Below, piece after piece: positions 1,631 to 34,473 of a stretch of 36,338 bases of DNA. The notes below the pieces were generated by a model that saw only the letters and a program-made list of their open reading frames with translations, made no database searches and had not been told where the DNA came from. Positions within the stretch are counted from its first letter, which is position 1; each line of letters begins with the position of its first letter. Made by a program: the position numbers and the translations under genes. The stretch is from NCBI GenBank assembly GCA_016790165.1, contig JAEUPL010000024.1, positions 1 to 36,338 on the forward strand. Reading direction: 5' to 3'. The DNA is from Burkholderiales bacterium (GTDB lineage: Bacteria; Pseudomonadota; Gammaproteobacteria; Burkholderiales; Casimicrobiaceae).

Positions 1631-1748
1631 CAACTTTTTGCGAGAAACGACTATCGAGCGGCCGATTGCGGTCGATTTTGCGTGATGTCGACATGACCAT
1701 TTTCCAGGCGGAAACGACCGCCGGTGGGTCGTTAGACCTAAAAAGATG
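1631..1748. repeat. 118-bp palindromic repeat, copy A
   Basis: This copy starts on the base after the TAA stop of the preceding gene. It aligns without gaps to copies at 26350-26467 and 34356-34473. Shared columns are CTTTT (4-8), AACGAC (16-21), GTCGA (57-61), AACGACC (83-89), GTCG (98-101) and AAAAG (111-115). Here the right arm folds as AACGACC (1713-1719) / GGTCGTT (1727-1733), and the centre ATGTCGACAT is a perfect palindrome. No coding potential is seen. Confidence 0.75.
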
Positions 1749-1831
1749 ATACTTCGTGTGGCGCACCGCCGGGCGCGAGTGCGTCTACCGTCGTATGTCG
1801 GCACTGACCGACGGTCACGAAAGGATCTCCG

Positions 1832-3154
1832 ATGCCATGTTCTGGTCGAGGTAGCAGTCCGCATCGGCGCTGTGCAGAGTCCGGGCGTCGTGTGGCGCGC
1901 TGGCTGGGCGTCGCGGCGTTTGGGTTGAGCGTCACGGTCTGCGCTCAGACGCCGGTGCCGTCGAGCCAGGGTTTCGTTGTCGATACGACGGGCACGCTCA
2001 GTGCGGCAGAACGTGATGACCTGGTGGGCCAGGCCCGTTTCACGCAACAGACGACAGGCGTGCAACTGTTCACCTTGATCGTGGACCACACCGATCCCGA
2101 ACCGATTGAGTCGTTCGCGCAGCGTGTGTTCGTAACGTGGAAACCCGGACGCAAGGGCGTGGACGACGGGCTGCTGCTGGTGCTTGCGCTGAAAAACGCG
2201 TCGCCCAAGACGCGATTGCATGTCGGCTACGGCCTCGAGGGGCAGATTCCTGACGCCGCCGCCAAACGCTTGCTCGCCGACACGGTGCGCCCGCTCCTCG
2301 ACTCGCGCGGTGCGTACGTGGCCGCCACGGCGGCGGCAGAGGGCGTGCGCGAAGTGCTGGGTGCACGTTCGGCAGGCGCGGCGGGTGCCGCGCGCAATAC
2401 CGGACAAGCCGCGACGCGAGCCCCGTCGCGCGAACAGAAGAACACTCAGGAGCTGAAACTGGTTGGGTCGGTGTTTGCGCAAATCGTGCCGCTGCTGATT
2501 GCGGTGTTTGTGCTGCAACGACCACGCTCGCGGGCGGTGGCCGCAGTGACATCATTTGTCGTGTGTTCACTGTCGGCCGCGATCTACTGGCTCCTGCGGG
2601 GTGACGACGGCATTTCGCCGTTCGCAGCGTTTGCATGGCTGGCCGTTGCACTGGTGCTGTTCATCGCGTTTGCCGGTCGCAAGCTGGAGCGCGTCGCAGC
2701 GCCCGCTGCTTACCGTGAGCCGCCCCGAGTACGTGATCGCAGCGCGATGTCCTCGCGTGAACGTCGTTCCCGAGCCCGTGCCGCACACGCCGCCGCGTCA
2801 CCGGTCCAACGCGTGCGAGCCCGCATTCCCACGACGTTCGCGCACTTCTTTGCCATTGCGGCGGCATTGCTGACCGTGCTCGGCCGCTCTGAGTCGAACG
2901 TCGAGGGCATGCTGCTCGTGATTGCGGGTTTGTTTGCTTCGGTGTTTGGCATCGTTATGGTCGCGCTGATGGTGCGCCAGTTCGCGGGTGCACGGGATAC
3001 TGCGGGCGGTAGCGATGGACGCGAGAGCTGGTCGTCGTCCAGTTGGGACGATTCCAGCAGTGGCTCGTCGTCGGGTGGCAGCGACTCCGGCGGCAGCAGC
3101 GGCGGCGATTCGGGGGGCGGTGGCGATTCCGGGGGCGGCGGCTCGTCCGAGTGA
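1832..3154 (+). CDS. TPM-domain membrane protein with Ser/Gly-rich tail
   Basis: This 440-residue protein has a signal or anchor segment (about 22-38, ending near VCAQ), then a TPM domain (PF04536) at about 45-165 with the typical FVVDTTGTLSAAE start and GVDDGLLLVLAL strand. About five hydrophobic segments follow (near 210-229, 233-256, 262-283, 336-350 and 359-380). The last 45 residues are a low-complexity Ser/Gly tail. TPM domains are linked to membrane or photosystem protein quality control in plants, but bacterial roles are poorly known, so no substrate can be given. The ATG at 1832 has AAAGGA about 8 bp upstream and is preferred over the GTG or ATG codons around it. The gene converges on the zinc receptor and shares its terminator hairpin. 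Confidence 0.8.
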   Translation: MPCSGRGSSPHRRCAESGRRVARWLGVAAFGLSVTVCAQTPVPSSQGFVVDTTGTLSAAERDDLVGQARFTQQTTGVQLFTLIVDHTDPEPIESFAQRVFVTWKPGRKGVDDGLLLVLALKNASPKTRLHVGYGLEGQIPDAAAKRLLADTVRPLLDSRGAYVAATAAAEGVREVLGARSAGAAGAARNTGQAATRAPSREQKNTQELKLVGSVFAQIVPLLIAVFVLQRPRSRAVAAVTSFVVCSLSAAIYWLLRGDDGISPFAAFAWLAVALVLFIAFAGRKLERVAAPAAYREPPRVRDRSAMSSRERRSRARAAHAAASPVQRVRARIPTTFAHFFAIAAALLTVLGRSESNVEGMLLVIAGLFASVFGIVMVALMVRQFAGARDTAGGSDGRESWSSSSWDDSSSGSSSGGSDSGGSSGGDSGGGGDSGGGGSSE

Positions 3155-3176
3155 GCGCCGCCACCCGAAGCGGCGC
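3155..3176. terminator. Shared hairpin between convergent genes
   Basis: GCGCCGC (3155-3161) and GCGGCGC (3170-3176) form a perfect 7-bp GC stem with an 8-nt loop. It fills the 23-bp gap between the TPM gene stop and the stop of the receptor on the other strand. There is no long T-run on either side, so it may act with Rho or only protect the 3' ends. Confidence 0.55.
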
Positions 3177-3177
3177 C

Positions 3178-5256
3178 TTACCAGTTCAGGTCCAGCCCGA
3201 GTCGCACTTGTCGCGCAGGTAGCGGATACAGCTCGCGGACGCCGCGGAGGGTCGTGGCGTTGTAGCCGAGCTGGTTGCCGAGATTCAGGCCCGCGAGTGT
3301 GATGCGCCCACTTTGCCGGGCGAACGTGAATCGCCACGCCGCGTGCAGATCGATCGTTGTGAACGCCGGCGTGGTGCCGTCGCCGGCGGCGTTCTGCTCA
3401 CGTTCGACGCTCGGTATGCGGCGTTGCGCGGCCGAGTGCCGTATTTCGCCGCGCAACCGCCAGGGGCCATGCTCCCACAGCAGTTCCGCGGCCACGCGCA
3501 TCGGAGCGATTCGTGGCAGCGGCTCTCCCGTGGCGCGGTTCGTTGCGCGGACGGTATCGGCGCGTAGCGCAAGATCGACCGTGTGTTGCGTGGCAAGCAG
3601 GCGCGCGCGCGCCTCGACCTCCGCACCGTAGTGACGCGCGGGCACGGCGCGGAACGCGTAAACGGGCAAAGGGTCAGCCGGTTCGTCGCTGTGCGAGTGC
3701 CCCACGGCGCGTTCGCCCGTGGCATCGAGTGATATGAAATTCCGGTAGCGCGCATGGAACGCATTGACGCGCAACGCGTGCGCGCCCGACTTCCAGGCAA
3801 GCCCCAGATCGACAAGCGAGCCGCGCTCGACCGGCAGATTCGGATCGCCACGCTCGTACGCACCGGTCGCCACGTGCACCCCATCGGCGAATCGCTCGAA
3901 GTAGCTGGGCGCGCGTTCCGCCAGGGTCGCGTTGGCTGTTGCAGTGAGCGTTGGCGAAAGGGTGTGTACCCACCCGGCGGAGGCATTCCACGTGGTCACC
4001 TGGCGGGATTGGGCGCCGCCGAAACGGTTGTGTCCCTCCTCATCGATGACCTCTTGCGTGCGAATGCGGTTCTGCTCGTTGCGCAGGCCGATCTGCAGTT
4101 CGCCCGCACCGAAGCGACGCTGTGCAAGCGCGAACAGCGCGGTGTTGCGGGTATCGGCGGGCGGGACGAACGCTTCTTCGCCAAGGGCTTCCGTGCGCGT
4201 CCGTTCGAGGTGGGTGCCGAACGCGAGTCGCCATCCGCCCAGCGGCCGCGTCGTCGCCGTGAGTCGAAACTCTTCACCGTGGTTGCGAAACGTGGTGCCG
4301 ACTTCGCCGCTACCTTCAACTTCATCGTGCTTGTAGCGGGTGAGGGCGAGGTGCCCGCTGACATCGAACAGCGGGCCACTCTCGGTGCGCCATGCTCCGG
4401 ACAGGAGAGCGCGGTTACGGCGCATGCGGATGGTGACATCCTCCTCCGCCACCACGCCGTAGTTGGAGCGATAGGTGTCGAGTGTTGCGCCCAGGTGGCC
4501 GCGGGCGTTGGCCCATGACAGGCCCACGCCACCGCTTTCGGTACGGGAGGCGGAATTTGCCACGCGATCAGTGCGTTCGCCGTCGGGGCGTGTGAACTCG
4601 GGCACGCGGACGTCATCGCTATCGCGCGTCGCAGCATCCACGGTGAAGTTGAGTCCACCCACCGGGGCCGCCACTCTCATCGCGCTGCCGCGACTGCGAT
4701 CGGCGGTTCCGAAAAGGAGCGTGGCATCGCCGGAAAATGCGGAAAGACCGCCGCGTGCGATGCGGTTGCTGATGCCATTGACGACGCCACCGATCGCGCC
4801 GCCCCCGTAGAGCAGTGTTGCCGGCCCACGCAGCACCTCGATCCGCTCGACGGTGAGCGGATCAAGCGGGACACCGTGGTCGAACGATAAGGTGCTCGCG
4901 TCGTGCGAATGGGCGCCGTCGGCGAGCACCCGGACGCGTTCGCCGTCCATACCGCGCACGATCGGGCGGCTTGCGCCTGGCGCGAACTGTGTCGCCGATA
5001 CGCCAACTACTCCGGAGAGCAGCTCGCCCAGCGTTGCGGGACGGCGGTCGCTCAGCGCGTCGCCGCTCAGTGTGGTCGTGGGTTGGGCTAGCGCTTCGGA
5101 CGCCAGTGGGTTGGCGGTGACGATGACCGGTGCCACGCGTTCGATCGGCGCCGCGGCAGATTGGGCGAAGGCGGGCGCGGCGAACGTGCCAAGCGTGGCT
5201 AGCGCGGCGCCGATGGCGAGGGGAGTGACTTGGGGTGAGGCTGAGGATAGATCCAT
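3178..5256 (-). CDS. znuD: TonB-dependent outer-membrane receptor, ZnuD-like (zinc uptake)
   Basis: The 692-residue protein is expected to carry a metal, most likely zinc, across the outer membrane using TonB energy. Residues 1-31 are a signal peptide cut after AFAQ. A TonB-box-like VIVTA follows, then a plug domain with the conserved IEVLRGPATLLYG, and a beta-barrel ending in an aromatic residue (LDLNW). The plug segment DGAHSHDASTLSFDHG and an extracellular GHSHSDEP loop are rich in His and Asp, as in Neisseria ZnuD. The frame stays open upstream to 5361, but I chose the ATG at 5254-5256 because the signal peptide starts there. The gene lies 176 bp downstream of a His-rich small protein on the same strand. 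Zur control would be expected, but I see no convincing Zur box. Copper or cobalt is the main alternative substrate. Confidence 0.85.
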   Translation of the reverse strand: MDLSSASPQVTPLAIGAALATLGTFAAPAFAQSAAAPIERVAPVIVTANPLASEALAQPTTTLSGDALSDRRPATLGELLSGVVGVSATQFAPGASRPIVRGMDGERVRVLADGAHSHDASTLSFDHGVPLDPLTVERIEVLRGPATLLYGGGAIGGVVNGISNRIARGGLSAFSGDATLLFGTADRSRGSAMRVAAPVGGLNFTVDAATRDSDDVRVPEFTRPDGERTDRVANSASRTESGGVGLSWANARGHLGATLDTYRSNYGVVAEEDVTIRMRRNRALLSGAWRTESGPLFDVSGHLALTRYKHDEVEGSGEVGTTFRNHGEEFRLTATTRPLGGWRLAFGTHLERTRTEALGEEAFVPPADTRNTALFALAQRRFGAGELQIGLRNEQNRIRTQEVIDEEGHNRFGGAQSRQVTTWNASAGWVHTLSPTLTATANATLAERAPSYFERFADGVHVATGAYERGDPNLPVERGSLVDLGLAWKSGAHALRVNAFHARYRNFISLDATGERAVGHSHSDEPADPLPVYAFRAVPARHYGAEVEARARLLATQHTVDLALRADTVRATNRATGEPLPRIAPMRVAAELLWEHGPWRLRGEIRHSAAQRRIPSVEREQNAAGDGTTPAFTTIDLHAAWRFTFARQSGRITLAGLNLGNQLGYNATTLRGVRELYPLPARQVRLGLDLNW

Positions 5257-5281
5257 GGTAGCAGTGATTTGATGCGATAGG

Positions 5282-5301
5282 CGCAACCAGCACCGGTTGC
5301 G
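5282..5301 (-). other. Inverted repeat in the receptor leader
   Basis: CGCAACC (5282-5288) and GGTTGCG (5295-5301) form a 7-bp stem with a 6-nt loop, 25 bp upstream of the receptor start codon. It could be an operator or an mRNA hairpin near the ribosome-binding site. No B12-box or other known riboswitch element is seen around it. Confidence 0.35.
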
Positions 5302-5432
5302 GTGATGGTCAGCGCGGGACGCGAAAGTCTTTGTGAGCCAGGCGGCGTGTCGCAGCCGCATGCGTTCGCTCCGGGGCTACCGCGGTGCGACGAAGGAAGG
5401 GCTACGGGGCCGTCAAGCGGCTGCGGACGTGC

Positions 5433-5912
5433 TCAGGCGAGCGAGGGTGTCCGGGCGTCTGCCAGGTGTCCGACCGGTGGCCCTCGCGTGGGCGGCGTCG
5501 CCCACGGCGTGCGAGTTCCGAGCCAGACTGCGGCCGGGAGCCCAAGCGCGAGAGCGGGCGGTGGCGGCGCTGGGGATGCCGCGAGCGAGCTGTGCGCCCA
5601 CCCGAGAAGGAGTCCATCGAGCGCTTGGCAACTGGTATCACCCGGTCGGTGGCCCCAGGAGTCGCCGTGGTCGGCGTGATCGTGGGCGTGATCGGCGGTG
5701 GCCTGAAGTCCGCCGCCGGAGACAAGCGTGTGCTCATCAACGCCGTGGCGCGCTATGAATCCGTGCGCGATAGTGTGCCACTGTGCCGCAAACTGGCTGA
5801 GTAGCAGCAGCAGAGCGACGACCACGATTCCCGCGAGCGAATGATCGCCGCGCCGCTGTGCGCGTGTGCGCGTCAGCGGCAGCATGTCGGATGGTTTGGA
5901 CGAAGCGATCAC
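5433..5912 (-). CDS. Small His-rich membrane or periplasmic protein next to the zinc receptor
   Basis: This 159-residue protein has an N-terminal hydrophobic segment (AGIVVVALLLLLSQFAAQW, near 27-45), so it is either anchored or exported. A metal-ligand-rich stretch HAHDHADHGDSWGH follows near 94-107, then a single Cys in TSCQALDGLLLG and a Pro/Ala-rich tail. Unnamed proteins of this build often sit beside zinc TonB receptors in Burkholderiales, so a role in holding or sensing zinc in the periplasm is plausible but inferred. The start is uncertain: GTG at 5912, or ATG at 5885 (150 residues). Neither has a clear ribosome-binding site. Open frames on the opposite strand cover the same region, but the hydrophobic segment and the position favour this one. 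Confidence 0.65.
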   Translation of the reverse strand: MIASSKPSDMLPLTRTRAQRRGDHSLAGIVVVALLLLLSQFAAQWHTIAHGFIARHGVDEHTLVSGGGLQATADHAHDHADHGDSWGHRPGDTSCQALDGLLLGWAHSSLAASPAPPPPALALGLPAAVWLGTRTPWATPPTRGPPVGHLADARTPSLA

Positions 5913-5918
5913 GGTGCG

Positions 5919-5941
5919 CCGAGGATACCATTCATCCTCGG
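5919..5941. promoter_or_regulatory. Perfect inverted repeat ahead of the zinc gene pair
   Basis: CCGAGGAT (5919-5926) and ATCCTCGG (5934-5941) are perfect arms around a 7-bp spacer. The site lies 6 bp upstream of the GTG start at 5912, or 33 bp upstream of the alternative ATG at 5885. It may be an operator for the His-rich protein and receptor genes. It does not resemble the AT-rich Zur box of proteobacteria. If it folded in the mRNA it would block the GTG start, which favours the ATG. Confidence 0.45.
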
Positions 5942-5968
5942 GAGCGCCATGGCAAGCTCAGTCCGCCC

Positions 5969-5986
5969 GCCCTGAAAAAACAGGGC
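5969..5986 (-). terminator. Hairpin downstream of the liv operon
   Basis: GCCCTG (5969-5974) and CAGGGC (5981-5986) enclose a run of six A on the plus strand (six T on the minus strand). It lies 22 nt past the stop codon of the last liv gene. The T-run is in the loop rather than after the stem, so this is not a canonical intrinsic terminator. Confidence 0.35.
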
Positions 5987-6008
5987 ATGCGGTTTGCCGA
6001 CGCAGTGA

Positions 6009-6812
6009 CTATGCCAGCCAGCGCTTGCGACGGCGGTAGCTCTTGACGTCACGGAAGCTCTTGCGCTCGCCCGACGAGATGCCAAGGTAGAACTCCTTGA
6101 CGTCTTCGTTGCTGGCCAGATCCCTGGCCGCGCCATCCATCACCACGCGGCCGCTCTCCAGAATGTAGCCGTAGTCGGCGTACTTCAGCGCGACGTTGGT
6201 GTTCTGTTCCGCCAGCAGGAAACTCACGTTCTCCTTGCTGTTGAGGTCCTTGACGATCTCGAAGATCTCAGCCACGATCTGCGGCGCAAGGCCCATTGAC
6301 GGCTCGTCGAGCAAAATCATCGACGGCTTTGCCATCAACGCGCGGCCGACCGCGACCATCTGCTGCTCGCCGCCCGAGGTATAACCCGCCTGCGATGTGC
6401 GGCGCGTTTTCAGACGCGGGAAGTAGTGATAAACCCGTTCGAGCGAGTCCTTCAATTCGGCGCGCGAAAGCTTGCGTGTATAGGCACCGGTCAACAGGTT
6501 TTCCTCAACGGTGAGGTGGCCGAAGCAGTGTCGTCCCTCCATCACCTGGACAACACCCATGCGCACCAGATCGTTGGTCGTCAGCTTGTCGGTGCGCTGG
6601 CCGTCGAACTCGATGGAGCCTTTGGTGACTTCGCCACGCTCGGTGCGAAGCAGATTCGAAATCGCCTTCAGTGTGGTGCTCTTGCCTGCGCCATTCGCCC
6701 CGAGCAGTGCCACGATCTTGCCCTTGGGGACTTCGAGCGATACACCCTTCAACACCAGGATGACGTGGTCGTAAATGACTTCGATGTTGTTGATGCTGAG
6801 ATAGGCGGACAT
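6009..6812 (-). CDS. livF: LIV-type ABC transporter ATP-binding protein (LivF)
   Basis: This is one of the two ATPases powering a branched-chain-amino-acid-type (HAAT) importer. The 267 residues show Walker A GANGAGKST (38-46), a signature YTSGGEQQM and Walker B with ILLDEPSMGLAP, all intact. It is about 30 residues longer than classical LivF, with a basic tail (RDVKSYRRRKRW). As I recall, that tail is common in LivF proteins of synthetase-linked clusters. It is the last gene of the operon, 197 bp beyond livK, and that gap holds two strong hairpins. The start ATG (6810-6812) has a weak ribosome-binding site. Substrate is not shown by the sequence; see the synthetase entry. Confidence 0.92.
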   Translation of the reverse strand: MSAYLSINNIEVIYDHVILVLKGVSLEVPKGKIVALLGANGAGKSTTLKAISNLLRTERGEVTKGSIEFDGQRTDKLTTNDLVRMGVVQVMEGRHCFGHLTVEENLLTGAYTRKLSRAELKDSLERVYHYFPRLKTRRTSQAGYTSGGEQQMVAVGRALMAKPSMILLDEPSMGLAPQIVAEIFEIVKDLNSKENVSFLLAEQNTNVALKYADYGYILESGRVVMDGAARDLASNEDVKEFYLGISSGERKSFRDVKSYRRRKRWLA

Positions 6813-6851
6813 AGTCTCGGTGGGCTTCCGTATGGGTTGCTACGGGATCAC

Positions 6852-6894
6852 TGTGTTGTGAAGGACGTTCTCATAACCCGTCGTTCACAACACA
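6852..6894 (-). other. Strong hairpin behind livK
   Basis: TGTGTTGTGAA (6852-6862) and TTCACAACACA (6884-6894) are perfect 11-bp arms. After one G-G mismatch the stem continues with GACG (6864-6867) / CGTC (6879-6882). It sits between livK (ends 7010) and livF on the transcript, with no T-run. It probably protects the 3' end of the livK message or dampens read-through into livF. Confidence 0.6.
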
Positions 6895-6922
6895 CTGAAG
6901 AACAATCTTGCAGTGTGTCGCG

Positions 6923-6948: not shown

Positions 6949-7009
6949 GGCTACGTGTACTCTCGTACGCGAGCTAGCGGGCGCCGACGCGTTACGCGCA
7001 GCAGCGTCT

Positions 7010-19509: not shown

Positions 19510-19525
19510 TTTTGTGACCAGCACG

Positions 19526-19553
19526 AAAAACGGCCGCAAGCGCGGCCGTTTTT
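19526..19553. terminator. Bidirectional intrinsic terminator
   Basis: AAAAACGGCCGC (19526-19537) and GCGGCCGTTTTT (19542-19553) pair over 12 bp around an AAGC loop. This gives a GC stem followed by T5 on both strands. It sits between the convergent transhydrogenase gene (ends 19509) and aapP (ends 19577). Confidence 0.92.
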
Positions 19554-19576
19554 CATACGACTGAACGAAGGATCGC

Positions 19577-24130: not shown

Positions 24131-24298
24131 TAAGGAAACGCTGAACAAGTCCCACGCGCACGTCGCATCGTCGGGCTTGGGCGATCTGCGAGCCAAAAAT
24201 TTCTCGCCATAGCCCCGCTATGGCTCCAAATTTTCGACTCCCAGATCATCCCAATCCGACGCGCGACGTATCGCGCAGACTTATTCAGCGTTTCCCTA
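24131..24298. mobile_element. MITE-like imperfect palindrome of about 162 bp
   Basis: The terminal arms GGAAACGCTGAACAAGTC (24134-24151) and GACTTATTCAGCGTTTCC (24278-24295) match at 17 of 18 positions. Inside them GATCTG (24183-24188) pairs with CAGATC (24242-24247), and GCCATAGC (24206-24213) with GCTATGGC (24217-24224). No reading frame is seen. The outer TA of the right end forms the TAG stop of the antiporter gene. It resembles intergenic repeats I remember from betaproteobacteria. A transcript of it would fold into one long hairpin and may end the antiporter message. It fills most of the gap upstream of the aap promoter. Confidence 0.7.
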
Positions 24299-26287
24299 AC
24301 CGATCAGGTGGAGTTCCAGCGCTGCGACGCTGGTTTGCGTACCCAGCAATACCACCGCATCGCCGGCCTCAAACACAAAGTCGTCGGTGGGCCGAGGTAG
24401 CCGCTCGCGGCCGCGGCGCACTTGCGTGATTTCTACGTCGTCGCCGCGATACGTGGCTGCCATGTCGCCCCACGTTCGCCCTACGGCGCTGGCGGCCGCA
24501 GGCAGGTGCAGCGTATGCAACACGCGGGCGTCGCCCTCGGAGTCGTTGCCGTCGCTGGCGCCGCGGTAGAAGCCCTGAAACATGCTGTAGCGCTCCACAC
24601 GCACGGCGCGGATGCGTTTGAGTACGCGCGACAGCGGGGTTCCGAGCAGCAGCAGGGAATGTGATGCGAGCATCAGGCTACCCTCAAGCACCTCTGGCAC
24701 CACTTCGGTTGCGCCGGCGGCGAGCAGGCGCTCGATCGGTTCGTCGTCGGTCGTGCGCACCACGATGGGTAGGTCGGCGCGAATCTGGCGCGCGGTGCCG
24801 ATGATTTTGAGCGCGGCTTCCTGGTCGGCGAACGAGACGACCAGCGCGCGCGCCCGCTCGGCCCCCGCCGCGACCAGTGCCTCGCGCCGTCGCGCGTCAC
24901 CGAACACCACATGACTCGATGCCGGGGAGAGGTCGGCGCCCAGTCCGCCCATCGCTTCCCTGACGCGATCCGGATCGTGATCCAGTGCGACGAAACGCAC
25001 GTCCTCGGTTTCCAGCAGACGCGCCAGATATTGCCCGCTGCGGCCAAAGCCGCAGATGATCACGTGATCTTGCCGCTCCATGCTTTCACTGGCGATGCGA
25101 AAGATGTCTGCCGAGCGGGCCAGAAAGTCGTTCGCCATCAACCGCTGGTTCGCCCGTTCAGCGAGGCGCGGCAGAAACGGCGCTGCCAGCATCGAGATCA
25201 GCATGGCCGCGATCGCGATTTGTGCGGCCTGCGCCGGCAGTGCACCACTGGTGAGCCCGAGCGTGATCAGCACAAAGCCGAACTCTCCGGCGGGCGTCAG
25301 CAGGGCGGTGGCGATGTTGGCGTCGGTGGTTTTCAGGCCAAAACGGCGCGTCAGTGGCTGCAGGATGAGCGCTTTGCCCGCGATCATCAGCGTGACGGTT
25401 AACACCACCCACGGCAATTGCGTGATGACGAACGCCCCGTCGAGTTGCATGCCCACCGAAATGAAGAACATGCCGAGCAACACGTCGCGAAACGGCCGGA
25501 TGTCGTCTTCCACCTGCAACTTGAATTCGGTTTCGGCGATCAGCATGCCTGCGACGAACGCGCCGAGGGCGTGCGGCAAACCAGCAAGATGGCAGAGCCA
25601 GGCCAGGAGCAGGGTGACCAGCAGCACGTTGAGCATGAACAGCTCGCCGGTTTTGTGCCGTGCCACGGCGCCCAGCCAGGCGCGCAGCACCGGCTGCCCG
25701 AACCCGAGCAGCAGCCCGAGCAGCACCACCATCTTGGTGACGACCCAGCCCATCTCCATCGCGCCCATGCCGCCACCGACGCCGAGCGCCGGCAAGAGAA
25801 TCAGCAGCGGAACGACTGCCAGGTCCTGAAACAGCAGCACGCCGATGACTGGCTTCGCCACCGGCGCGGCGAGCTCGTTGCGTTCGGCCAGCAACTTGAT
25901 GCCGATGGCTGTGGACGACATGGCGAGCGCCGCGCCCAGCACAATGGCCGCCGCGACGGTTTGCGACAGCGCCAGGGCCACGAGTGCAAACAGGGCCAGC
26001 GAACCCACGTACTGCGCCGTGCCGAGGCCCAGCACCATGCGCCGCATCGCCCGGAACTGTGGCAGCGAAAATTCCAGACCGATCGAGAACATCAGGAATA
26101 CGACGCCGTATTCGGCGATTTCCTTCGCCTGCGTGGAATCCGGAATCAGCTTGATCGCCTGTGGCCCGAGCAGCATGCCGACCAGCAGGTAACCCAATAA
26201 CGACGGCAAGCGCAGCCGACGGCACACCGCCACCGACAACACGCTCGCGGCGAGAACGATGACGACAAGGGCAAGCGGCGAATGCAT
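24296..26287 (-). CDS. CPA2-family K+/H+ antiporter with TrkA-N and TrkA-C domains (KefB/KefC/YbaL type)
   Basis: The 663-residue protein has a Na_H_Exchanger domain of about 12 helices (1-385; YLLVGMLLGPQAIKLIP, GVVFLMFSIGLEFSLPQF). A Rossmann TrkA-N domain follows (about 405-520; VIICGFGRSGQYLARLL), then a TrkA-C domain (about 575-660). It should expel K+ (or Na+) in exchange for H+, gated by nucleotide or glutathione adducts at TrkA-N. The start ATG (26285-26287) gives the usual LALVVIVLAASVLSV helix. The TAG stop (24296-24298) lies inside the right end of a MITE-like element, so the original C-terminus may have changed slightly. Kup, a K+ importer, is just upstream. Confidence 0.9.
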   Translation of the reverse strand: MHSPLALVVIVLAASVLSVAVCRRLRLPSLLGYLLVGMLLGPQAIKLIPDSTQAKEIAEYGVVFLMFSIGLEFSLPQFRAMRRMVLGLGTAQYVGSLALFALVALALSQTVAAAIVLGAALAMSSTAIGIKLLAERNELAAPVAKPVIGVLLFQDLAVVPLLILLPALGVGGGMGAMEMGWVVTKMVVLLGLLLGFGQPVLRAWLGAVARHKTGELFMLNVLLVTLLLAWLCHLAGLPHALGAFVAGMLIAETEFKLQVEDDIRPFRDVLLGMFFISVGMQLDGAFVITQLPWVVLTVTLMIAGKALILQPLTRRFGLKTTDANIATALLTPAGEFGFVLITLGLTSGALPAQAAQIAIAAMLISMLAAPFLPRLAERANQRLMANDFLARSADIFRIASESMERQDHVIICGFGRSGQYLARLLETEDVRFVALDHDPDRVREAMGGLGADLSPASSHVVFGDARRREALVAAGAERARALVVSFADQEAALKIIGTARQIRADLPIVVRTTDDEPIERLLAAGATEVVPEVLEGSLMLASHSLLLLGTPLSRVLKRIRAVRVERYSMFQGFYRGASDGNDSEGDARVLHTLHLPAAASAVGRTWGDMAATYRGDDVEITQVRRGRERLPRPTDDFVFEAGDAVVLLGTQTSVAALELHLIG

Positions 26288-26349: not shown

Positions 26350-26467
26350 TGGCTTTTTGGCGCCAACGACAGTACAACGGTCGCTCTAGCCGCAAAATGA
26401 CGCTAGTCGACTATGCGGAAAATATCGATGCAACGACCGTCAGGCCGTCGTTGCGAGCGAAAAGCTG
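26350..26467. repeat. 118-bp palindromic repeat, copy C
   Basis: This copy ends 5 bp from the kup stop codon and has the same 118-bp length and block order as the copies at 1631 and 34356. By hand count it is about 53% identical to the 34356 copy without gaps. Its centre TAGTCGACTA is a perfect palindrome, and AACGAC (26432-26437) pairs with GTCGTT (26447-26452). AAAAGCTG closes it at 26460-26467. It fills most of the 185-bp gap between kup and the antiporter gene. Confidence 0.75.
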
Positions 26468-26472
26468 ATTAC

Positions 26473-28371
26473 CTAAAACTTGATCTGTGCACCGAGTTCG
26501 AGCACGCGATTGGTCGGAATCTGGAAATACGCCGTCGCCGACTGCGCGTTGCGCGACATTACGCTGAACAGCCGCTGGCGCCACACCGAAATGCGCGAAC
26601 AGGGCGTGGGCACGAGCACTTCGCGCGAGACGAAGAATGAGGTGTCCATCATCTCGAAATCAATGCCCTGCTGTTTGGCGTGTGACAGCGCCTTCGGAAT
26701 ATCCGGCGCGTTCATGAAGCCGTAATGCACGATGATCTTGTGGAAGCCGTGGCCCAAGTCCTCCACCTGCAGGCGTTTGGCGCGACTGACCAGCGGAACA
26801 TCCTCAAACTGCACGTGCAACACGATATTGCGCTCGTGCAGCACCTTGTTGTGCTTGAGGTTGTGCAGCATGGCCGCGGGCATCTCGTCGGGCGCCGACG
26901 TCATGAACACCGCCGTGCCCTGCACGCGCGTGGCGTCCCGTGCCAGCGCCTCGATCATCGGCGCCAGCGGCAGGGCAGTTTGCCGCCGCTGCTCAGCCAT
27001 GAGATTGCGGCCGCGTTTCCAGGTGGTCATAAATACCAGCACCACGCCCGCGACCAGTAACGGGAACCAGCCGCCGTCGGGAATTTTGATCGCGGTCGAG
27101 GCAAGCAGCGCCACGTCAACGGCGGCGAACACGATGACCGCGACGGTAGCGGCCACCTTGTGCCACTTCCACAACGCGAACGCGACAACGGCGAACAGGA
27201 CCGTGTCGATCGCCATCGCACCGGTGACCGCCAGACCATACGCGGCCGCCAGATTGGCCGTGCTGCGGAACGCGAGCACCACGATCAGCACCAAAATCAG
27301 CAGCGTCCAGTTCACAGCGGGCAGATAAATTTGTCCTTCGGCACGATGCGAGGTGTGGATGACTTGCATGCGTGGCAGGAAGCCAAGCTGGATGCCTTGA
27401 CGGGCAATCGAAAATGCACCCGAAATCACCGCTTGTGACGCGATGATCGACGCGAGGCCAGCGAGCACCACCATGGGAATCAGCCAGGCGTGGGGCACCT
27501 GATCGTAAAACGGATGCACGTCGCATTGTGCGGTGCCGGCACAGGACTTCAGGATCAGCGCGCCCTGACCAAAGTAGTTCAGCACCAGTGCCGGCATCAC
27601 GTATGCAAACCAGGCCACGCGGATCGGCTTTCGGCCGAAATGTCCCATATCGGCGTACAGCGCCTCGGCACCCGTCACGGCGAGCACGGCGGAGCCAAGC
27701 ACCACGATGAATAGCCCGGGGTTGTGCGATAGAAACGCAACGGCGTAGTAGGGGTTCAGCGCGAAGAACACGCGAGGGTTGTCAGCGATGTGCCACACGC
27801 CGAGCACAGCAAGCACCAGAAACCAGAGCACCATGATCGGCCCGAACCACGCACTGACCTTGCCGGTGCCCGTTCGCTGCACATAAAAGAGGCCGAGCAA
27901 AATCAACACGGTAACTGGCACCACGGCGGGCAGCCAGTCCTTGTTGATCTGTTCCAACCCTTCCATCGCGCCGAGCACCGAGACGGCGGGTGTGACGATG
28001 GAATCGCCAAAGAACAGTGAAACCCCAAAGATGCCAAGTAACGTGAGCCAGCGCCGTCGTTTGGCGTTGGTGGCGGTGCGCAGCGCCATCGCCAGCAGCA
28101 CCATGGTGCCGCCTTCACCCTGATTGTCGGCACGCAGGATGATCAGGGCGTACTTCACCGCAACCACGATGGTCAGCACCCAGAAAATCAGTGACAACAG
28201 GCCGAGCACGTTGGCCTCGGTCAGTGCAATGCTGTGCGCCTTGTTGAAAAACACCTCTTTCATCGTGTAGAGCGGCGAGGTGCCAATGTCGCCGTAGACC
28301 ACACCGATCGCGCCGAGCGCGAGCGCAGCTGTGCGCTTGAGGGATACGTCGTTCGACGCGTGAGAGCTCAT
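26473..28371 (-). CDS. kup: Low-affinity K+ transporter Kup
   Basis: The 632-residue inner-membrane protein brings K+ in by H+ symport. It has 12 expected helices, the family signature GVVYGDIGTSPLYTMKEVF (about 23-41), the GGTMVLLAMAL segment and the C-terminal cytosolic domain (about 470-632; GTAVFMTSAPDEMPAAMLHNLKHNK). Length is typical. The ATG at 28369-28371 starts the MSSHAS segment. Together with the CPA2 antiporter downstream on the same strand it forms a K+ uptake/efflux pair. A 118-bp palindromic repeat follows its stop. Confidence 0.95.
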   Translation of the reverse strand: MSSHASNDVSLKRTAALALGAIGVVYGDIGTSPLYTMKEVFFNKAHSIALTEANVLGLLSLIFWVLTIVVAVKYALIILRADNQGEGGTMVLLAMALRTATNAKRRRWLTLLGIFGVSLFFGDSIVTPAVSVLGAMEGLEQINKDWLPAVVPVTVLILLGLFYVQRTGTGKVSAWFGPIMVLWFLVLAVLGVWHIADNPRVFFALNPYYAVAFLSHNPGLFIVVLGSAVLAVTGAEALYADMGHFGRKPIRVAWFAYVMPALVLNYFGQGALILKSCAGTAQCDVHPFYDQVPHAWLIPMVVLAGLASIIASQAVISGAFSIARQGIQLGFLPRMQVIHTSHRAEGQIYLPAVNWTLLILVLIVVLAFRSTANLAAAYGLAVTGAMAIDTVLFAVVAFALWKWHKVAATVAVIVFAAVDVALLASTAIKIPDGGWFPLLVAGVVLVFMTTWKRGRNLMAEQRRQTALPLAPMIEALARDATRVQGTAVFMTSAPDEMPAAMLHNLKHNKVLHERNIVLHVQFEDVPLVSRAKRLQVEDLGHGFHKIIVHYGFMNAPDIPKALSHAKQQGIDFEMMDTSFFVSREVLVPTPCSRISVWRQRLFSVMSRNAQSATAYFQIPTNRVLELGAQIKF

Positions 28372-28529: not shown

Positions 28530-29540
28530 TTACACCCGGGCCAAGGGCAGATTCAGCAGCAGGTTCTGGGGTTTCAGTTGCAGATGATTCTCGGCATCCA
28601 TCGCCATCGCCACATAAATCGGTCGCCCCGCAATCGCTGGGCGCATATCGGCCGAATTGCTGAAGCGCAATTCGAACAGGCACAGCAAACGCCTCATCCG
28701 CGCGTCATCAACCGGCGTCTGGTTGTAGAGATCGTTCAGTACGCTGGACGCGACGGCGTCGAGCCCGACGTGCCACCCCCATTGTTTGTGGTCGAGCTCA
28801 CGCCGGTGCACAAGCGTGATCTCTACGCCCAAAAAGTGGGCAACCCATTGCTCAAGCACACGCATCAGGGCGTCGAGCGCGGGCTCGCCGCGATCAAGCC
28901 TGACTGCCAGGTCGAAGCGTTGGTCGCGCTGCCAGTAGGTTTGCGCGTTGTCCGCCGACAGCACGTCAAGATCAAGCAATGGGCTGAGCGTGTTCTGCTT
29001 GCGCCGCGGCCCGCCGGGCGAGCCGAAGCCTCCACTCTCGCCGCGCCGCTCCACCGTCTCATCGTCTGCGGCGATCACGCCGTCGCCGTCGAGCACGGAC
29101 ACTTTCTGTACGCGGAACAGGCATTCCGCCATGCGCGCCCGCAGCGGGTCGGCATCGTTGCCAAGAATGTGCCGGAGGAGGATCTGCGTCAGCAGAAAAA
29201 CGAAGATCGGCGGCACGTCAAGCCGGTCGCCACGAAACAGATTCACATAGGCGGCCTCCAGCGTGGGCGCCGCCAGCAGCCGGTCGCGCAAGCGCAGCAG
29301 GACGCGGTAGTTGGCCTGCGCATCCGGGTCGGCGATCGACAGTAACTCGCCGCCAGCGACAGCGCGCCGGGGCTCGACCATCAGCGCATCGTGCAGGCGA
29401 AGCTCGGCGTCGCAGGACTCGGCCACCGGCGCCACCTCGGGCCGCAGGAACAGGCTACGCAGAAAATCGTCGCTCACGACCAGCGCGCGGCCCTGTTGCC
29501 GCAACAACTTGTAACCTGTGGAAGCCCAGAAATCAGGCAT
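28530..29540 (-). CDS. DUF6352-like hypothetical protein
   Basis: The 336-residue protein starts MPDFWASTGYKLL, which I recognise as typical of the uncharacterised DUF6352 family of Burkholderiales. It is soluble with no signal peptide. The frame is open to 29576, but the ATG at 29538-29540 starts the conserved segment. The body is rich in Arg and acidic residues, with WHVGLDAVASSVLNDLYN and LLCLFELRF segments. No catalytic motif is seen and no function is known. It is divergent from ahcY. A coding-like stretch in another frame after its stop may be a lost C-terminus (see findings). Confidence 0.7.
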   Translation of the reverse strand: MPDFWASTGYKLLRQQGRALVVSDDFLRSLFLRPEVAPVAESCDAELRLHDALMVEPRRAVAGGELLSIADPDAQANYRVLLRLRDRLLAAPTLEAAYVNLFRGDRLDVPPIFVFLLTQILLRHILGNDADPLRARMAECLFRVQKVSVLDGDGVIAADDETVERRGESGGFGSPGGPRRKQNTLSPLLDLDVLSADNAQTYWQRDQRFDLAVRLDRGEPALDALMRVLEQWVAHFLGVEITLVHRRELDHKQWGWHVGLDAVASSVLNDLYNQTPVDDARMRRLLCLFELRFSNSADMRPAIAGRPIYVAMAMDAENHLQLKPQNLLLNLPLARV

Positions 29541-29793
29541 GAACCCGCCGTGTTGCCGTACATTGGTTGACTGCAAGCGTAAAGCACCCGTTGCGCAATC
29601 TGTGCTGGCGGGGCGTTTTGCCTGTGGTCAACACCCTTCGGGCACGCGAGACCTCCGTCATGAGTCCAATCCTTCGTCGACTGTCTGTTCTCGCTATGGC
29701 AGCGCTCTGCGCCGTCGTACGCGCCGCGCGGGTCGCCCGCCAGATCAGGGAGTTTCCGCCAATCATCAAGGCGAGCGGCACAAAACTCTGAGC

Positions 29794-29799
29794 TAAAAT
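29794..29799 (+). promoter_or_regulatory. Likely -10 box for the ahcY transcript
   Basis: TAAAAT (29794-29799) lies 7 bp before the first paired base of the SAH riboswitch, which fits a start of transcription at about 29806. No good -35 box is seen 17 bp upstream (GCGAGC-like). Confidence 0.5.
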
Positions 29800-29805
29800 C
29801 GTCAG

Positions 29806-29887
29806 CTGTTCGAGGAGCGCTGCAAGCGGCCCGGAGCTCTCCGGTGACGACCAGGCTCGAACAGGTTTCTTTCAACGGCGCTCGCAG
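29806..29887 (+). ncRNA. SAH riboswitch upstream of ahcY
   Basis: This aptamer senses S-adenosylhomocysteine and turns on ahcY when it builds up. All parts are visible. P1 is CTGTTCGAG (29806-29814) with CTCGAACAG (29856-29864), a perfect 9 bp. The conserved GAGCGCTGCAA begins at 29815. P2 is CCGGA (29831-29835) with TCCGG (29840-29844). CCAGGCTCG lies at 29851-29859. The pseudoknot joins GAGCGC (29815-29820) to GCGCTC (29878-29883) in AACGGCGCTC. It directly precedes ahcY, the usual place in betaproteobacteria. Confidence 0.92.
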
Positions 29888-29920
29888 TTTTGGTGACGAT
29901 GTTCACGATGCCTGCGAGCG
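29879..29920 (+). promoter_or_regulatory. Expression platform of the SAH riboswitch
   Basis: CGCTCGCAG (29879-29887) is perfectly complementary to CTGCGAGCG (29912-29920). The first arm overlaps the pseudoknot strand, so the aptamer and this hairpin exclude each other. No T-run follows, so control may work through Rho or folding of the 63-nt leader before ahcY rather than intrinsic termination. Confidence 0.6.
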
Positions 29921-29983
29921 GCCCGCCATCCGGCCTCTCCCAAGCGTTCGCTGCTGCTTCGTCACCCCGAAATGGAGTGACCG

Positions 29984-31414
<1,431 letters not shown>

Positions 31415-31460
31415 TCCACCGGATTGCATCCCTCCTGTCAAAGGAAGGATGTTGATGCCA

Positions 31461-31476
31461 CCCGCTTTCGAGCGGG
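31461..31476 (+). other. UUCG-capped hairpin after ahcY
   Basis: CCCGCT (31461-31466) and AGCGGG (31471-31476) enclose a TTCG tetraloop, which makes a very stable RNA hairpin 46 nt after the ahcY stop. Without a T-run it more likely protects the ahcY 3' end than terminates. Confidence 0.5.
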
Positions 31477-31515
31477 CGGCACGCAATCCACAGCTTCACC
31501 AAGCCGGAGCACCCT

Positions 31516-31869
31516 ATGACCCGCCTCATCATTGTCTGGATACTCAACGCCGTCGCGCTGATGGCGGTGGCCTACCTGATGCCGTCGATCAAGATCACGA
31601 GCTTTGTGTCGGCCTTGCTCGCGGCGTTGGCGCTCGGCCTGGTCAACACGCTGATCCGGCCGGTGCTGACTTTCCTCACGCTGCCGATTTCGGTGCTCAC
31701 ACTGGGTTTTTTCTACCTCGTGCTGAACGGCCTCCTGTTCTGGATGGTCGGCAAAGTGCTCGATGGCTTCTCTGTCGACGGCTTTTGGGCGGCGGTACTC
31801 GGCGGTTTGCTCTACGGATTGATTTCGTGGCTGCTCGCGCTGATCATCCCGTTCGGCAAGAAGAAGTAG
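31516..31869 (+). CDS. Phage-holin-like four-helix membrane protein (YvlD type)
   Basis: The 117-residue inner-membrane protein has about four hydrophobic helices (4-22, 28-47, 53-80, 86-112) and a basic end (FGKKK). It matches the phage_holin_4_2/YvlD group, with the typical GLVNTLIRPVLTFLTLPI and LGFFYLVLNGLLFWM. Despite the name, these are chromosomal proteins of unknown role, not lysis genes. It sits between ahcY and tlyA, a gene order I recall from many Burkholderiales. Confidence 0.85.
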   Translation: MTRLIIVWILNAVALMAVAYLMPSIKITSFVSALLAALALGLVNTLIRPVLTFLTLPISVLTLGFFYLVLNGLLFWMVGKVLDGFSVDGFWAAVLGGLLYGLISWLLALIIPFGKKK

Positions 31870-31881
31870 GCGCCCGTCGTC

Positions 31882-32640
31882 ATGCGTGCTGATGTGCTGC
31901 TTGTCGAGCGCGGGCTCGCGCCGTCGCGCACGGCTGCACAACGCCTGATCGCAGGCGGGTATGTGTTCACCCGAATCGGACGCAAGGGCACGCGCGTGGC
32001 ACTGACCAAACCGGGTCTGACGCTGGAAGACGACGTTGCCATTGAGGTTGAAGCCAGCGAACTCAGTCGCTTCGTCTCGCGCGGTGGGCTCAAACTCGAT
32101 GCTGCGCTGACGCGGGTTGGGTTTGACGTGTCGGGTTTGCGCTGTCTTGATGTGGGCCAGTCGACCGGCGGCTTTACGGATTGCCTGTTGCAGCGCGGGG
32201 CTGCGCACGTCGTGGGTGTCGATGTCGGTCACGACCAGCTGCATGCTTCGCTGCGCGGTGATCCGCGGGTGACGTGCATTGAAGGCTTGAACGCGCGGGA
32301 CCTGACTTCAACGCAACTCGCGGCGCCAGCGGATGTCGGTTTTGACGTCATCGTCGCCGACGTGTCGTTCATCTCGCTGACGAAAGTGCTGCCGCAATGG
32401 CCCGCGCTGCTTGTTTCCGGCGGACGCGTGCTTTCGCTCGTGAAGCCGCAGTTCGAGGTTGGCGCCGGGCACGTGGGGCGTGGCGGAATCGTGCGCGACA
32501 CGTCACTCTATGCCAGCGTCGAAACCACCATCCGCAGCGCGTGCGCACTGGTGGGCCTGTCGGTTCTCGACTACTTTGAAAGCCCGATCACCGGCAGCGA
32601 CGGCAATCACGAGTTTTTCGTCTACGCGGAGCGCCCATGA
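31882..32640 (+). CDS. tlyA: TlyA-family rRNA 2'-O-methyltransferase
   Basis: The 252-residue protein has an N-terminal S4 RNA-binding domain (1-60; RADVLLVERGLAPSRTAAQR) and an FtsJ/RrmJ-type methyltransferase domain with SAM motif LDVGQSTGGFTDCLL (about 88-102) and DVIVADVSFISL. TlyA methylates ribose 2'-OH groups in 16S and/or 23S rRNA. Haemolytic activity has been reported, but rRNA is the established target in mycobacteria. As an SAM user it fits next to ahcY. Its stop overlaps the next start as ATGA (32637-32640). Confidence 0.9.
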   Translation: MRADVLLVERGLAPSRTAAQRLIAGGYVFTRIGRKGTRVALTKPGLTLEDDVAIEVEASELSRFVSRGGLKLDAALTRVGFDVSGLRCLDVGQSTGGFTDCLLQRGAAHVVGVDVGHDQLHASLRGDPRVTCIEGLNARDLTSTQLAAPADVGFDVIVADVSFISLTKVLPQWPALLVSGGRVLSLVKPQFEVGAGHVGRGGIVRDTSLYASVETTIRSACALVGLSVLDYFESPITGSDGNHEFFVYAERP

Positions 32641-33110
32641 GCAAGCCCTCACGCGCCGCGGCGGATGAGTTCCGCGACTACTGCCTGGAGCTGTTGTCGC
32701 CCGTGGCGCCGCGCGGCGGCGTTAGCGGAATCGTCGCACGCCGGATGTTCGGCGGCACCGGTTTCTCGATGGATGGCAAGACCTTCGCCATCATCGCGTT
32801 TGACCAGCTGTGGCTCAAGGCTGACGACGAAGCGCGCGGCGTTTTCGAGGCCGCCGGTTGTGACATCTTTACCTACGACGCTGACGGCAAGACGCGCACG
32901 ATGGGCTACTACACCGTGCCGCCCGACGCCATGGAGTCGGCGGCGCTGATGAAGCCCTGGGCCGAGCTGGCGTGGGGCGCGGCGCTTCGGGCGGCTGCGG
33001 GCAAGGCCAGCACAGGCGCGCGTCGCAGGGCACCGGCGGTAGCCAAGTCAACATCCGGGGCGACGGCGACGTCGCGTCGCCCGAAACAGACACAGCAGAA
33101 AAAGAAATGA
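32637..33110 (+). CDS. TfoX N-terminal-domain protein with basic tail
   Basis: The 157-residue protein has a TfoX_N (Sxy-like) domain at about 5-112 (VARRMFGGTGFSMDGKTFAII; LWLKAD; YYTVPPDAMES). The 45-residue tail is rich in Ala, Lys and Arg and ends QKKK, so it may bind nucleic acid. The TfoX C-terminal domain is absent. Full TfoX/Sxy is a competence co-activator of CRP, but N-domain-only proteins are widespread and unstudied. The start overlaps tlyA, and the stop overlaps metF as ATGA. Confidence 0.82.
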   Translation: MSKPSRAAADEFRDYCLELLSPVAPRGGVSGIVARRMFGGTGFSMDGKTFAIIAFDQLWLKADDEARGVFEAAGCDIFTYDADGKTRTMGYYTVPPDAMESAALMKPWAELAWGAALRAAAGKASTGARRRAPAVAKSTSGATATSRRPKQTQQKKK

Positions 33111-33931
33111 GCAACTTTTCGTTTGAATTTTTCCCGCCCAACACGCCAGAGGGCGCCGTCAAGCTGCGCACCGTGACGCAGGAGCTCGGCGTGCTGGCGC
33201 CCGAGTTTTTCAGCGTTACCTATGGCGCTGGCGGTTCAACGCGCGAGAAGACGTTGTCGACCGTGCTTGAAATCATCGCCTCGGGGCACGCGGCGGCGCC
33301 GCACCTCTCGTGCATCGGCGCAACGAAGCAGAGCATCGCCGAGACGCTGGACCTGTACCGTTCAAAGGGTATCAACCGCATCGTCGCGTTGCGCGGCGAC
33401 CTTCCCAGCGGCATGGGGGCGATCGGTGAATTTACCTATGCCACCGATCTGGTTCGCTTCATCCGCGAGCGCCACGGCGACGAATTCACCATCGAAGTGG
33501 CTGCCTATCCCGAGTACCACCCGCAATGCCGCTACGCTGAGGCCGATCTCAAGAATTTTGTGGCCAAGGCGCGGGCGGGCGCACATTCGGCCATTACACA
33601 GTTCTTCTTCAATGCGGACGCCTACTTTCACTTCGTCGACGAAGTGCGCAAGCGCGGCGTCACCATTCCCATCGTGCCCGGCATCATGCCGTTTCACAAT
33701 TTTTCGAAGATCGCACGCTTTGCCGCGAAGGACTCCATCGACATCCCGCGCTGGATCGCGCTCAAGATGGAAGGCTTCATGGACGATGCCGCGTCCATCC
33801 GCGCGTTCGGTGCCGATGTCATCACCAATCTCTGCCGCCGCCTGCTCGAAGGCGGCGCGCCCGGCATCCACTTCTACACCATGAACCAGTCGGCGTTGAC
33901 GTCGGATATCGTCAAGCGCCTTCGCAGTTAA
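33107..33931 (+). CDS. metF: Methylenetetrahydrofolate reductase (NAD(P)H)
   Basis: The 274-residue flavoprotein reduces 5,10-methylene-THF to 5-methyl-THF, the methyl donor for methionine. The TIM-barrel family motifs are FEFFPP (5-10, with the catalytic Glu), VTYGAGGSTR, the FAD contact region and AITQFFFNADAY with PGIMPF. The frame is open from 32972, but the ATG at 33107-33109 overlaps the previous stop and starts at the conserved MSNFSFEFFPP. Its place behind ahcY makes a methyl-cycle operon. Confidence 0.95.
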   Translation: MSNFSFEFFPPNTPEGAVKLRTVTQELGVLAPEFFSVTYGAGGSTREKTLSTVLEIIASGHAAAPHLSCIGATKQSIAETLDLYRSKGINRIVALRGDLPSGMGAIGEFTYATDLVRFIRERHGDEFTIEVAAYPEYHPQCRYAEADLKNFVAKARAGAHSAITQFFFNADAYFHFVDEVRKRGVTIPIVPGIMPFHNFSKIARFAAKDSIDIPRWIALKMEGFMDDAASIRAFGADVITNLCRRLLEGGAPGIHFYTMNQSALTSDIVKRLRS

Positions 33932-33945
33932 CCCGGAGCACCACC

Positions 33946-34350
33946 ATGAGCAACAGCGCCCTTCACCCGATCCACACCGATCAGGCCCCGGCCGCTATTG
34001 GCCCGTATTCGCAGGCGATCAGCGCCAACTTTGCCTTCAAAGGCACGGTGGTGTTTTGCTCCGGCCAGATCGGGCTCGACCCGGCCACCGGCAATTTGCG
34101 CGACGGCTTTGAAGCGCAGGTCGATCAGGCGCTGGCCAACATGCAGGCGGTCATCAAGGCCGCGGGCGGCGATCTCTCGGGCATCGTCAAGCTCACGCTG
34201 TTCCTCACCGATCTCGGCAACTTCGGCGTGGTCAACGCCAAGCTGGAGGCGTTGCTGCCCAAACCGTATCCTGCACGCTCCACGGTGGGCGTGGCGTCGC
34301 TGCCGAAGGGGGCACAGTTCGAGATTGAGGCCATCGTCGTCGCTGGATAG
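33946..34350 (+). CDS. ridA: RidA/YjgF-family enamine/imine deaminase
   Basis: The 134-residue protein fits the trimeric Rid fold. It shows GPYSQAI, VVFCSGQIGLDPATGNL, the catalytic Arg in PARSTVGV (about 106) and IEAIVVA near the end (catalytic Glu). RidA hydrolyses reactive 2-aminoacrylate and related imines made by PLP enzymes. It lies 14 bp after metF with CGGAG upstream of the ATG. A 118-bp palindromic repeat follows. Confidence 0.93.
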   Translation: MSNSALHPIHTDQAPAAIGPYSQAISANFAFKGTVVFCSGQIGLDPATGNLRDGFEAQVDQALANMQAVIKAAGGDLSGIVKLTLFLTDLGNFGVVNAKLEALLPKPYPARSTVGVASLPKGAQFEIEAIVVAG

Positions 34351-34355
34351 CGAAA

Positions 34356-34473
34356 CAGCTTTTGTCATCGAACGACCGGCCGGCGGTCGTTTCGCCTGAT
34401 TTTTCGTCTGAGTCGATATTGCGAAAATGTAGCCGCCAACGACCAGCGGCTGGTCGCTCGCGCCGAAAAGCTG
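34356..34473. repeat. 118-bp palindromic repeat, copy B
   Basis: This is the most regular of the three copies. The ends CAGCTTTT (34356-34363) and AAAAGCTG (34466-34473) are near-exact complements. The left arm folds as AACGACCG (34371-34378) / CGGTCGTT (34384-34391) and the right arm as CGACCAG (34440-34446) / CTGGTCG (34450-34456). By hand count it is about 57% identical to the copy at 1631. It begins 5 bp after the ridA stop, in the gap between convergent genes. Confidence 0.78.

Follow-up and report, generated by a model that had tools for sequence, protein, structure and literature searches.

A 118-bp two-fold symmetric intergenic element, repeated several hundred times in a Burkholderiales genome, as a probable nucleoprotein site

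The window analysed here (36,338 nucleotides, positions 1 to 36,338 of contig JAEUPL010000024.1, from a Burkholderiales bacterium of the family Casimicrobiaceae, assembly GCA_016790165.1) contains three copies of a 118-bp palindromic element that belongs to a large family in the host genome and in its relatives. The element is symmetric about its centre, its boxes keep a fixed register, its copies lie between genes with close neighbours depleted, and at some matching sites copies occur in two genomes. From these features we infer protein binding, selection rather than repeated movement, and a function; the element is probably a selected, two-fold symmetric nucleoprotein site in double-stranded DNA, whose most likely role is chromosome organisation. 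Below, the host genome is designated G000; G008, G003, G012 and others are its relatives, and G001 and G004 are sister genomes.

With blastn, one copy gave 49 matches against its own genome at E <= 10, itself and both strands included, and a profile run over 400 kb picked out 34 copies with E < 1e-3 (best E in a block-shuffled control, 0.62). An earlier sequence-only reading of the window had proposed looking for further copies, and the host genome does hold them in large numbers: profile A2, built from 42 copies, detected 94 in 1.23 Mb of G000, or 76 per Mb and about 290 in the whole genome; on five long contigs of G008, 0.39 Mb together, it detected 44 (114 per Mb). The G000 stretches were taken at round coordinates on contigs from the hit list and the G008 contigs were long ones from that list, so these densities may lean high. 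There is no net indel in 83 of 91 full-length G000 copies or in 93 of the 102 copies of the enlarged G008 set. The symmetric consensus reads CAGCTTTTT-N6-AACGACC-N7-GGTCGTT-N8-AATTTTT-N4-AAGTC/GACTT plus its mirror, and two further flanking positions are 95-97% A or T. The A-tract columns are mostly TTT or AAA (121/176 and 128/176), and the centre is conserved about as strongly as the ends. The symmetrised profile of 176 copies carries 96 bits; by our arithmetic about 15 bits would suffice to mark some 290 sites in 3.76 Mb. Whole genomes were searched with two models, R1 and R2, the best 150 candidates per genome being scored with both strands counted, so the resulting match counts are not copy numbers.

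The boxes are displaced from their usual distance to the centre by 0, 1, 10, 11 or 21 bp, that is, by whole helical turns. In the 194 of 202 copies in which the centre was located, outer boxes above threshold stand at offset 0 in 177 cases on the left and 175 on the right, with 12 in all at +/-1; the remainder lie at offset 10 (2) and 21 (2), plus one at an inward +20, which falls inside the arm and is read as chance. Six insert-bearing elements were followed box by box: three have the outer box at +10, and three have the arm at +11 and the outer box at +21, with runner-up scores far lower. Further +10 spans are listed on G008 contig C51 and G003 contig C194 (readings from the list, not box by box). 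The matches listed for G001 include spans of 128 and 139 bases, against the usual 118-119; the first of these (L269) measures 126 bp against 116 in a length table for which lengths of 114-119 and 126-128 were tried, while the second, at +20, is a list reading and not a box-by-box one. As a control, random inserts of 3-21 bp were placed at two spacers: all 171 of 171 copies were still detected, and the segment scan read the insert size correctly in 159-160 of 171, whereas nhmmer gave the right net shift in only 56 of the 171 when 21 bp had been placed in the outer spacer.

Depletion of near neighbours was seen in two of the three genomes tested; exact periodic spacing of the copies was not found. 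Four G000 contigs provide 69 gaps between copies, with a mean of 13.1 kb. Distributing the copies over intergenic stretches according to length would leave 16.5 gaps shorter than 4 kb; 3 were observed, and none of 4000 simulations was as low. The depletion is clear on contigs C15, C7 and C6. The single-contig chromosome of G005 was compared with a uniform null, its length rounded to 4.5 Mb. Among the matches listed there, 95 distinct strong copies have a smallest gap of 6.8 kb, and 0 of 94 gaps fall under 6.5 kb (12.1 expected); once all 24 further positions given by the R1 search are added, the smallest gap is 5.2 kb and none is under 5 kb (14.6 expected). The same tool lists G008 pairs 2.8-3.3 kb apart, so the search itself is not thinning close pairs at that scale.

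G008 and G000 were compared through 252 reciprocal best hits with a median protein identity of 74%. Among the 111 gene pairs that are adjacent in both, the element is present in both genomes in 5, in G008 only in 3, in G000 only in 0 and in neither in 103 (Fisher, 4e-7); the counts are 5/2/0/38 (1.7e-5) for gaps with at least 40 bp besides the element, and 3, 0, 0 and 60 in the first part of the comparison alone. Since 40 of the G008 contigs had been picked as carriers of copies, the absence of G000-only cases is due in part to selection of the sample. At the five matching sites the spacers are 0.357 identical, against 0.334 for unrelated copies, and the boxes 0.757, against 0.726 for random copies; the copies there are exactly 118 bp long despite this divergence, which reflects either long retention under selection or repeated arrival. 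One site occupied in G008 only is the gap between an Fe-ADH and an ABC-transporter gene at window positions 19510-19576, where a terminator-like hairpin with a T run is present in both genomes.

The palindrome appears to be read as double-stranded DNA. Across 176 ungapped copies the local arms are Watson-Crick paired at 58.95% of positions, against 58.62% after shuffling (z 0.7); of the 20 arm pairs, three have z values of 2.6-2.8 and one has 3.6. All of the 25 strongest column correlations join columns one or two apart, as expected for readout of double-stranded DNA. RNAalifold predicted no pair on 42 copies. In that set two of five pairing measures for local hairpins were high: a change in both partners occurs in 12 pairs, with 7.7 expected (0 of 500 shuffles), and there are 28 further pair types (23.3 expected; 7 of 500 shuffles). 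The covariation for which the sequence-only reading had suggested a test is thus absent from the 42- and 176-copy sets beyond marginal effects. In G001 the inner boxes GGTCGTT and AACGACC are replaced by GGGGCTA and TAGCCCC, both differing together, with outer boxes and centre unchanged; this variant keeps its symmetry about GTCGAC and loses the local hairpins. It contradicts the picture of two hairpins around a centre that had been drawn from the window. Of the three options offered with that picture, a protein-binding site gains support, as a predicted site, from the register and from the symmetry kept in the sister variant; a 3'-end RNA element, with its marginal covariation and with no local hairpins in the sister variant, lacks it; a mobile-element origin stays as a rival.

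Several observations weigh against a selected nucleoprotein site. Some of the insert-bearing elements may share descent (two are 1.4 kb apart), and weak R1 alignments in G004 give net sizes of -3 and -8, which we take as misalignment to the wrong model. Turnover is high: of 43 G008 gene ends that adjoin an element and whose gene has a best hit in the sampled G000 DNA (at only 28-45% identity in some cases), 15 are occupied at the matching end in G000, against a background of 26/250, and three of the eight conserved gaps occupied in G008 are empty in G000. What looks like retention could also come from elements inserting more than once in the same large gaps. Neighbour depletion is absent from contig C18 taken alone (P 0.15-0.18; closest pair 842 bp) and weak in G008, with 10 gaps under 4 kb against 12.3 expected (dispersion P 0.019), and the spacing in G005, drawn from the best 150 scored matches, describes the stronger copies only. 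Over the whole palindrome, 53.85% of cells are paired in the 176 copies, against 52.94% shuffled (z 2.5), with single pairs at z 2.5-3.6 (local 18-34, 19-33, 25-27 and 88-98; whole 14-105 and 22-97).

The copies in the window and the parts of copy 3, together with one empty site, are as follows.

1631-1748, better family-orientation match on the minus strand: element copy 1, a 118-bp core between an FAD-linked oxidase gene (224-1630, plus) and a TPM-domain gene (1832-3154, plus).
26350-26467, minus strand: element copy 2, between a kup-like gene (26473-28371, minus; stop 5 bp from the copy) and a Na/H exchanger-TrkA gene (24296-26287, minus).
34356-34473, plus strand: element copy 3, between convergent RidA-like (33946-34350, plus) and Ldh_2 (34485-35705, minus) genes.
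34356-34363, plus strand: outer box CAGCTTTT, element positions 1-8, assigned from consensus and conservation.
34371-34391, plus strand: left arm palindrome AACGACC-N7-GGTCGTT, positions 16-36.
Element positions 45-49 and 70-74: A-tracts on either side of the dyad centre.
34410-34419, plus strand: dyad centre, family consensus AAGTCGACTT, positions 55-64.
34438-34458, plus strand: right arm, positions 83-103.
34466-34473: mirror outer box AAAAGCTG, the counterpart of CAGCTTTT.
19510-19576, no strand: empty intergenic site; the matching place in G008 (contig C226, L330) is occupied.

The three copies lie where the sequence-only reading had placed them and align without a gap. As written they share 57, 67 and 63 of 118 positions pairwise, and on the better strand 65, 68 and 67; random 118-mers from the window, each set against 2000 random places, reach 57 at best (mean of maxima 49.6 over 300 trials), so that the weakest pair as written is, alone, within chance. 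For the three copies chance is excluded by the large family, and the three-copy observation is confirmed. Self-complementarity across the centre amounts to 32-34 of 59 pairs in each. The reported distances from stop codons (0, 5 and 5 bp) are correct, copy 3 being also 11 bp from the stop of the convergent gene, and the flanking genes, which had been called a dehydrogenase, kup and ridA, contain FAD-oxidase, K+ transporter and L-PSP (RidA) domains. Copy 3, a member of the R1 model's own training set, ranks first among the R1 matches listed for the host genome, with the best 150 candidates scored. At the Rfam gathering score the sole match in the window, with none at the copies, is a SAH riboswitch (RF01057, 29806-29890, plus strand, 57.7 bits against a gathering score of 37); it lies just upstream of an open reading frame (ORF) at 29984-31414, a candidate ahcY, to judge from the riboswitch.

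Genes were predicted with a simple codon-usage caller. Overlap with a predicted gene never exceeds 60 bp for the 94 G000 copies, in a sample that is about 86% coding; 51 lie between tandem, 25 between convergent and 16 between divergent genes, and 2 at edges. The proposed link to gene 3' ends is weak. A stop codon stands no more than 40 bp from 55 of the 92 placed copies; on the other side, 16 of the 92 lie between divergent genes, where depletion is not significant (P 0.17), and of the 51 copies in tandem pairs only 28 are closer to the stop. Enrichment of convergent gaps is modest (odds ratio 2.0, P 0.015).

Each of the first 13 genomes of the genus to be examined (G000-G012) has an R1 or R2 match at E <= 0.001, with the thinnest support in G010 (6 matches, best E 9.6e-6) and G002 (best E 4.7e-6). 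Eight genomes of other families gave no R1 or R2 match. Of 300 genomes drawn from the order and searched at E <= 1e-5 with stricter filters, 6 gave a match, each a member of this genus (1 of 134 genera); among the other 294 are one listed member of the genus (G295) and two genomes of the same family. The best kup matches in named genomes, a set from which near records may be missing, were about 54% identical and came from mixed proteobacteria. Two profiles found nothing significant in 80 such named loci (722 kb; best E 0.25), and one G008 copy found no match among plasmids and phages (blastn, E 0.01). In the literature, with subscription journals mostly outside the search, no described element was recognised as the same. 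Most copies listed for G005 are of the sister type; one (C1:25071) fits the G000-type model well (E 1.3e-16), with sister-type copies about 5-6 kb away on both sides.

The main rival, above all for the spacing, is a transposon origin with target immunity: an old palindrome resembling a miniature inverted-repeat transposable element (MITE), its boxes serving transposase recognition and its orthologous copies being repeated insertions. Transposon target immunity keeps copies apart, and the spacing is as it would give; there are terminal inverted repeats (the CAGCTTTT and AAAAGCTG ends), the copies are dispersed between genes, and species differ in their presence or absence. We nevertheless consider this origin unlikely. 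There is no target-site duplication, direct flank repeats of 2-9 bp being near the shuffled expectation in 176 copies (at 4 bp, 3 against 0.8 expected). Near-identical recent copies are lacking in G000, where the closest of 83 are 69% identical; a 96% pair in G008 (L319 719-836, L333 13534-13651) lies within 495 bp of 95% identical DNA and is accordingly a larger duplication or an assembly overlap. The centre is about as conserved as the ends, and no pairs of half-elements flanking a gene were seen in the hit lists, no dedicated search having been run. Transposases were searched for as Y1_Tnp alone, the domain relevant to mobilisation of doublets of repetitive extragenic palindromes (REPs), or REPINs, by a REP-associated tyrosine transposase (RAYT). 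That explanation was rejected on pairing, tag and spacing. The element does have two inverted palindromic arms at a fixed distance, Y1_Tnp matches occur in 12 of 13 genus genomes, and in G008 a copy lies 41 bp past the stop codon of one Y1_Tnp gene. REPINs, as far as the account in PMC3116915 goes, show common compensatory changes and invariant 16-mers at their ends and are placed at random in extragenic space. In the element, pairing is scarcely above that of shuffles, close neighbours are depleted, and no GTAG or CGTC tag is visible by eye beside the arms in the 118-bp consensus. Clear copies stand no more than about 2.5 kb from Y1_Tnp in 4 of 5 cases in G008, 2 of 4 in G003 and 0 of 2 in G000, with a weak match in 1 of 2 in G012; of the 13 regions fetched, 6 thus have a clear copy and one a weak one, close to what density by itself predicts (by our arithmetic about 0.35-0.5 each). 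G009 has elements and no Y1_Tnp match, and we regard REPINs as a very improbable explanation. On G000 contig C12 (L084), neighbouring RAYT-like genes at 1243-1764 and 1988-2485 stand beside an alaS-like ORF; the first was scanned with Pfam, and the second and the alaS-like ORF were judged by eye.

It is scarcely credible that the element works in mRNA as a hairpin, whether as a 3'-end RNA element or as a bidirectional terminator. Single-strand folds beat shuffles on 5 of 6 strands (z -2.2 to -5.7; the sixth -1.3), and weak terminator-like matches fall at the edge of copy 2 and within the other two copies of the window. RNA structure was rejected, however, on the lack of appreciable covariation and on the sister variant, in which the local stem is lost; in addition there are the 16 of 92 copies between divergent genes, and at window positions 19510-19576 and their occupied G008 counterpart a separate T-run hairpin is present with or without the element. 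Beyond those weak matches, the copies do not show the build of an intrinsic terminator, a stem followed directly by a U tract at gene 3' ends. A specific candidate for the binder is DNA gyrase, which wraps about 130 bp around a central cut; the element would then be a strong wrapping site, like the bacterial interspersed mosaic element BIME-2 but of other sequence. The E. coli gyrase motif, in the account given in PMC6379681, is 130 bp long, symmetric and degenerate, with a 10.75-bp GC periodicity in its arms. The element resembles it in length, two-fold symmetry and helical phasing, and its intergenic location with some convergent enrichment would suit gyrase too. Its GC period is 9.5-10 bp and weak (power at most 0.15 in the arm; 0.04 at 10.75 bp), conservation peaks instead at a period of 13.5 bp, its 96 bits differ from a degenerate motif, and its matches in the 300-genome draw are confined to one genus; gyrase is not favoured by the weak GC periodicity, and we think it quite doubtful.

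Among known systems, matS and parS, of about 13-16 bp, are dispersed palindromic double-stranded DNA sites of chromosome-organising proteins; the element is likewise palindromic, dispersed and probably read as double-stranded DNA, but is about 118 bp long with several boxes. The 127-bp enterobacterial repeat ERIC / RU-1 (ERIC, enterobacterial repetitive intergenic consensus) is, by description, also a long intergenic palindrome of near-fixed length; it belongs to another host group and is set apart here by description, not by comparison of sequences, and we know of no report of helical register or spacing for ERIC. BIMEs are mosaics of short REPs. According to the portions of PMC6907758 and PMC6379681 that deal with them, BIME and BIME-2 are palindromic arrays of E. 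coli that gyrase cleaves and that have been proposed as supercoil barriers, and the element is like them in its hundreds of intergenic palindromic sites and its proposed role in supercoil domains; it differs in being one fixed 118-bp dyad in whole-turn register, with depleted close neighbours and no appreciable covariation. With REPINs it shares two inverted palindromes at a fixed distance, intergenic location and high copy number; relative to what PMC3116915 and PMC3733652 relate in the parts concerned, it lacks common compensatory changes, the tag, recent G000 copies and a consistent RAYT link, and has a conserved centre and non-random placement.

On the explanation we prefer, a selected nucleoprotein site, each half-site would run CAGCTTTT, AACGACC, GGTCGTT (GGGGCTA in the sister lineage), an A-tract, then half of AAGTCGACTT. 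The site, about 118-122 bp, would be bound by a symmetric protein assembly, and the fixed helical register of the boxes would make insertions of whole turns tolerable. Several hundred such sites would be kept by selection in intergenic DNA and held several kb apart, and their likely role would be chromosome organisation, for example anchoring or insulating supercoil domains. More tentatively, and with rather less confidence, the element may represent a new class of chromosome architecture: a compound, two-fold symmetric nucleoprotein site, about 118 bp long and present several hundred times, in helical register, kept at matching places after its spacers have saturated, spaced at least 5-7 kb apart (a minimum taken from the strong copies of one complete chromosome, among the matches listed) and marking chromosomal units used as domain boundaries. 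Even with another role, some 290 copies of a double-stranded DNA site carrying 96 bits imply a large protein assembly dedicated to them, and we know of none of that kind. If the proposal is true, what sets the boundaries of supercoil domains becomes testable through a sequence-defined site present in hundreds of copies, one that could be used as bait for its protein, moved, deleted and compared with contact maps.

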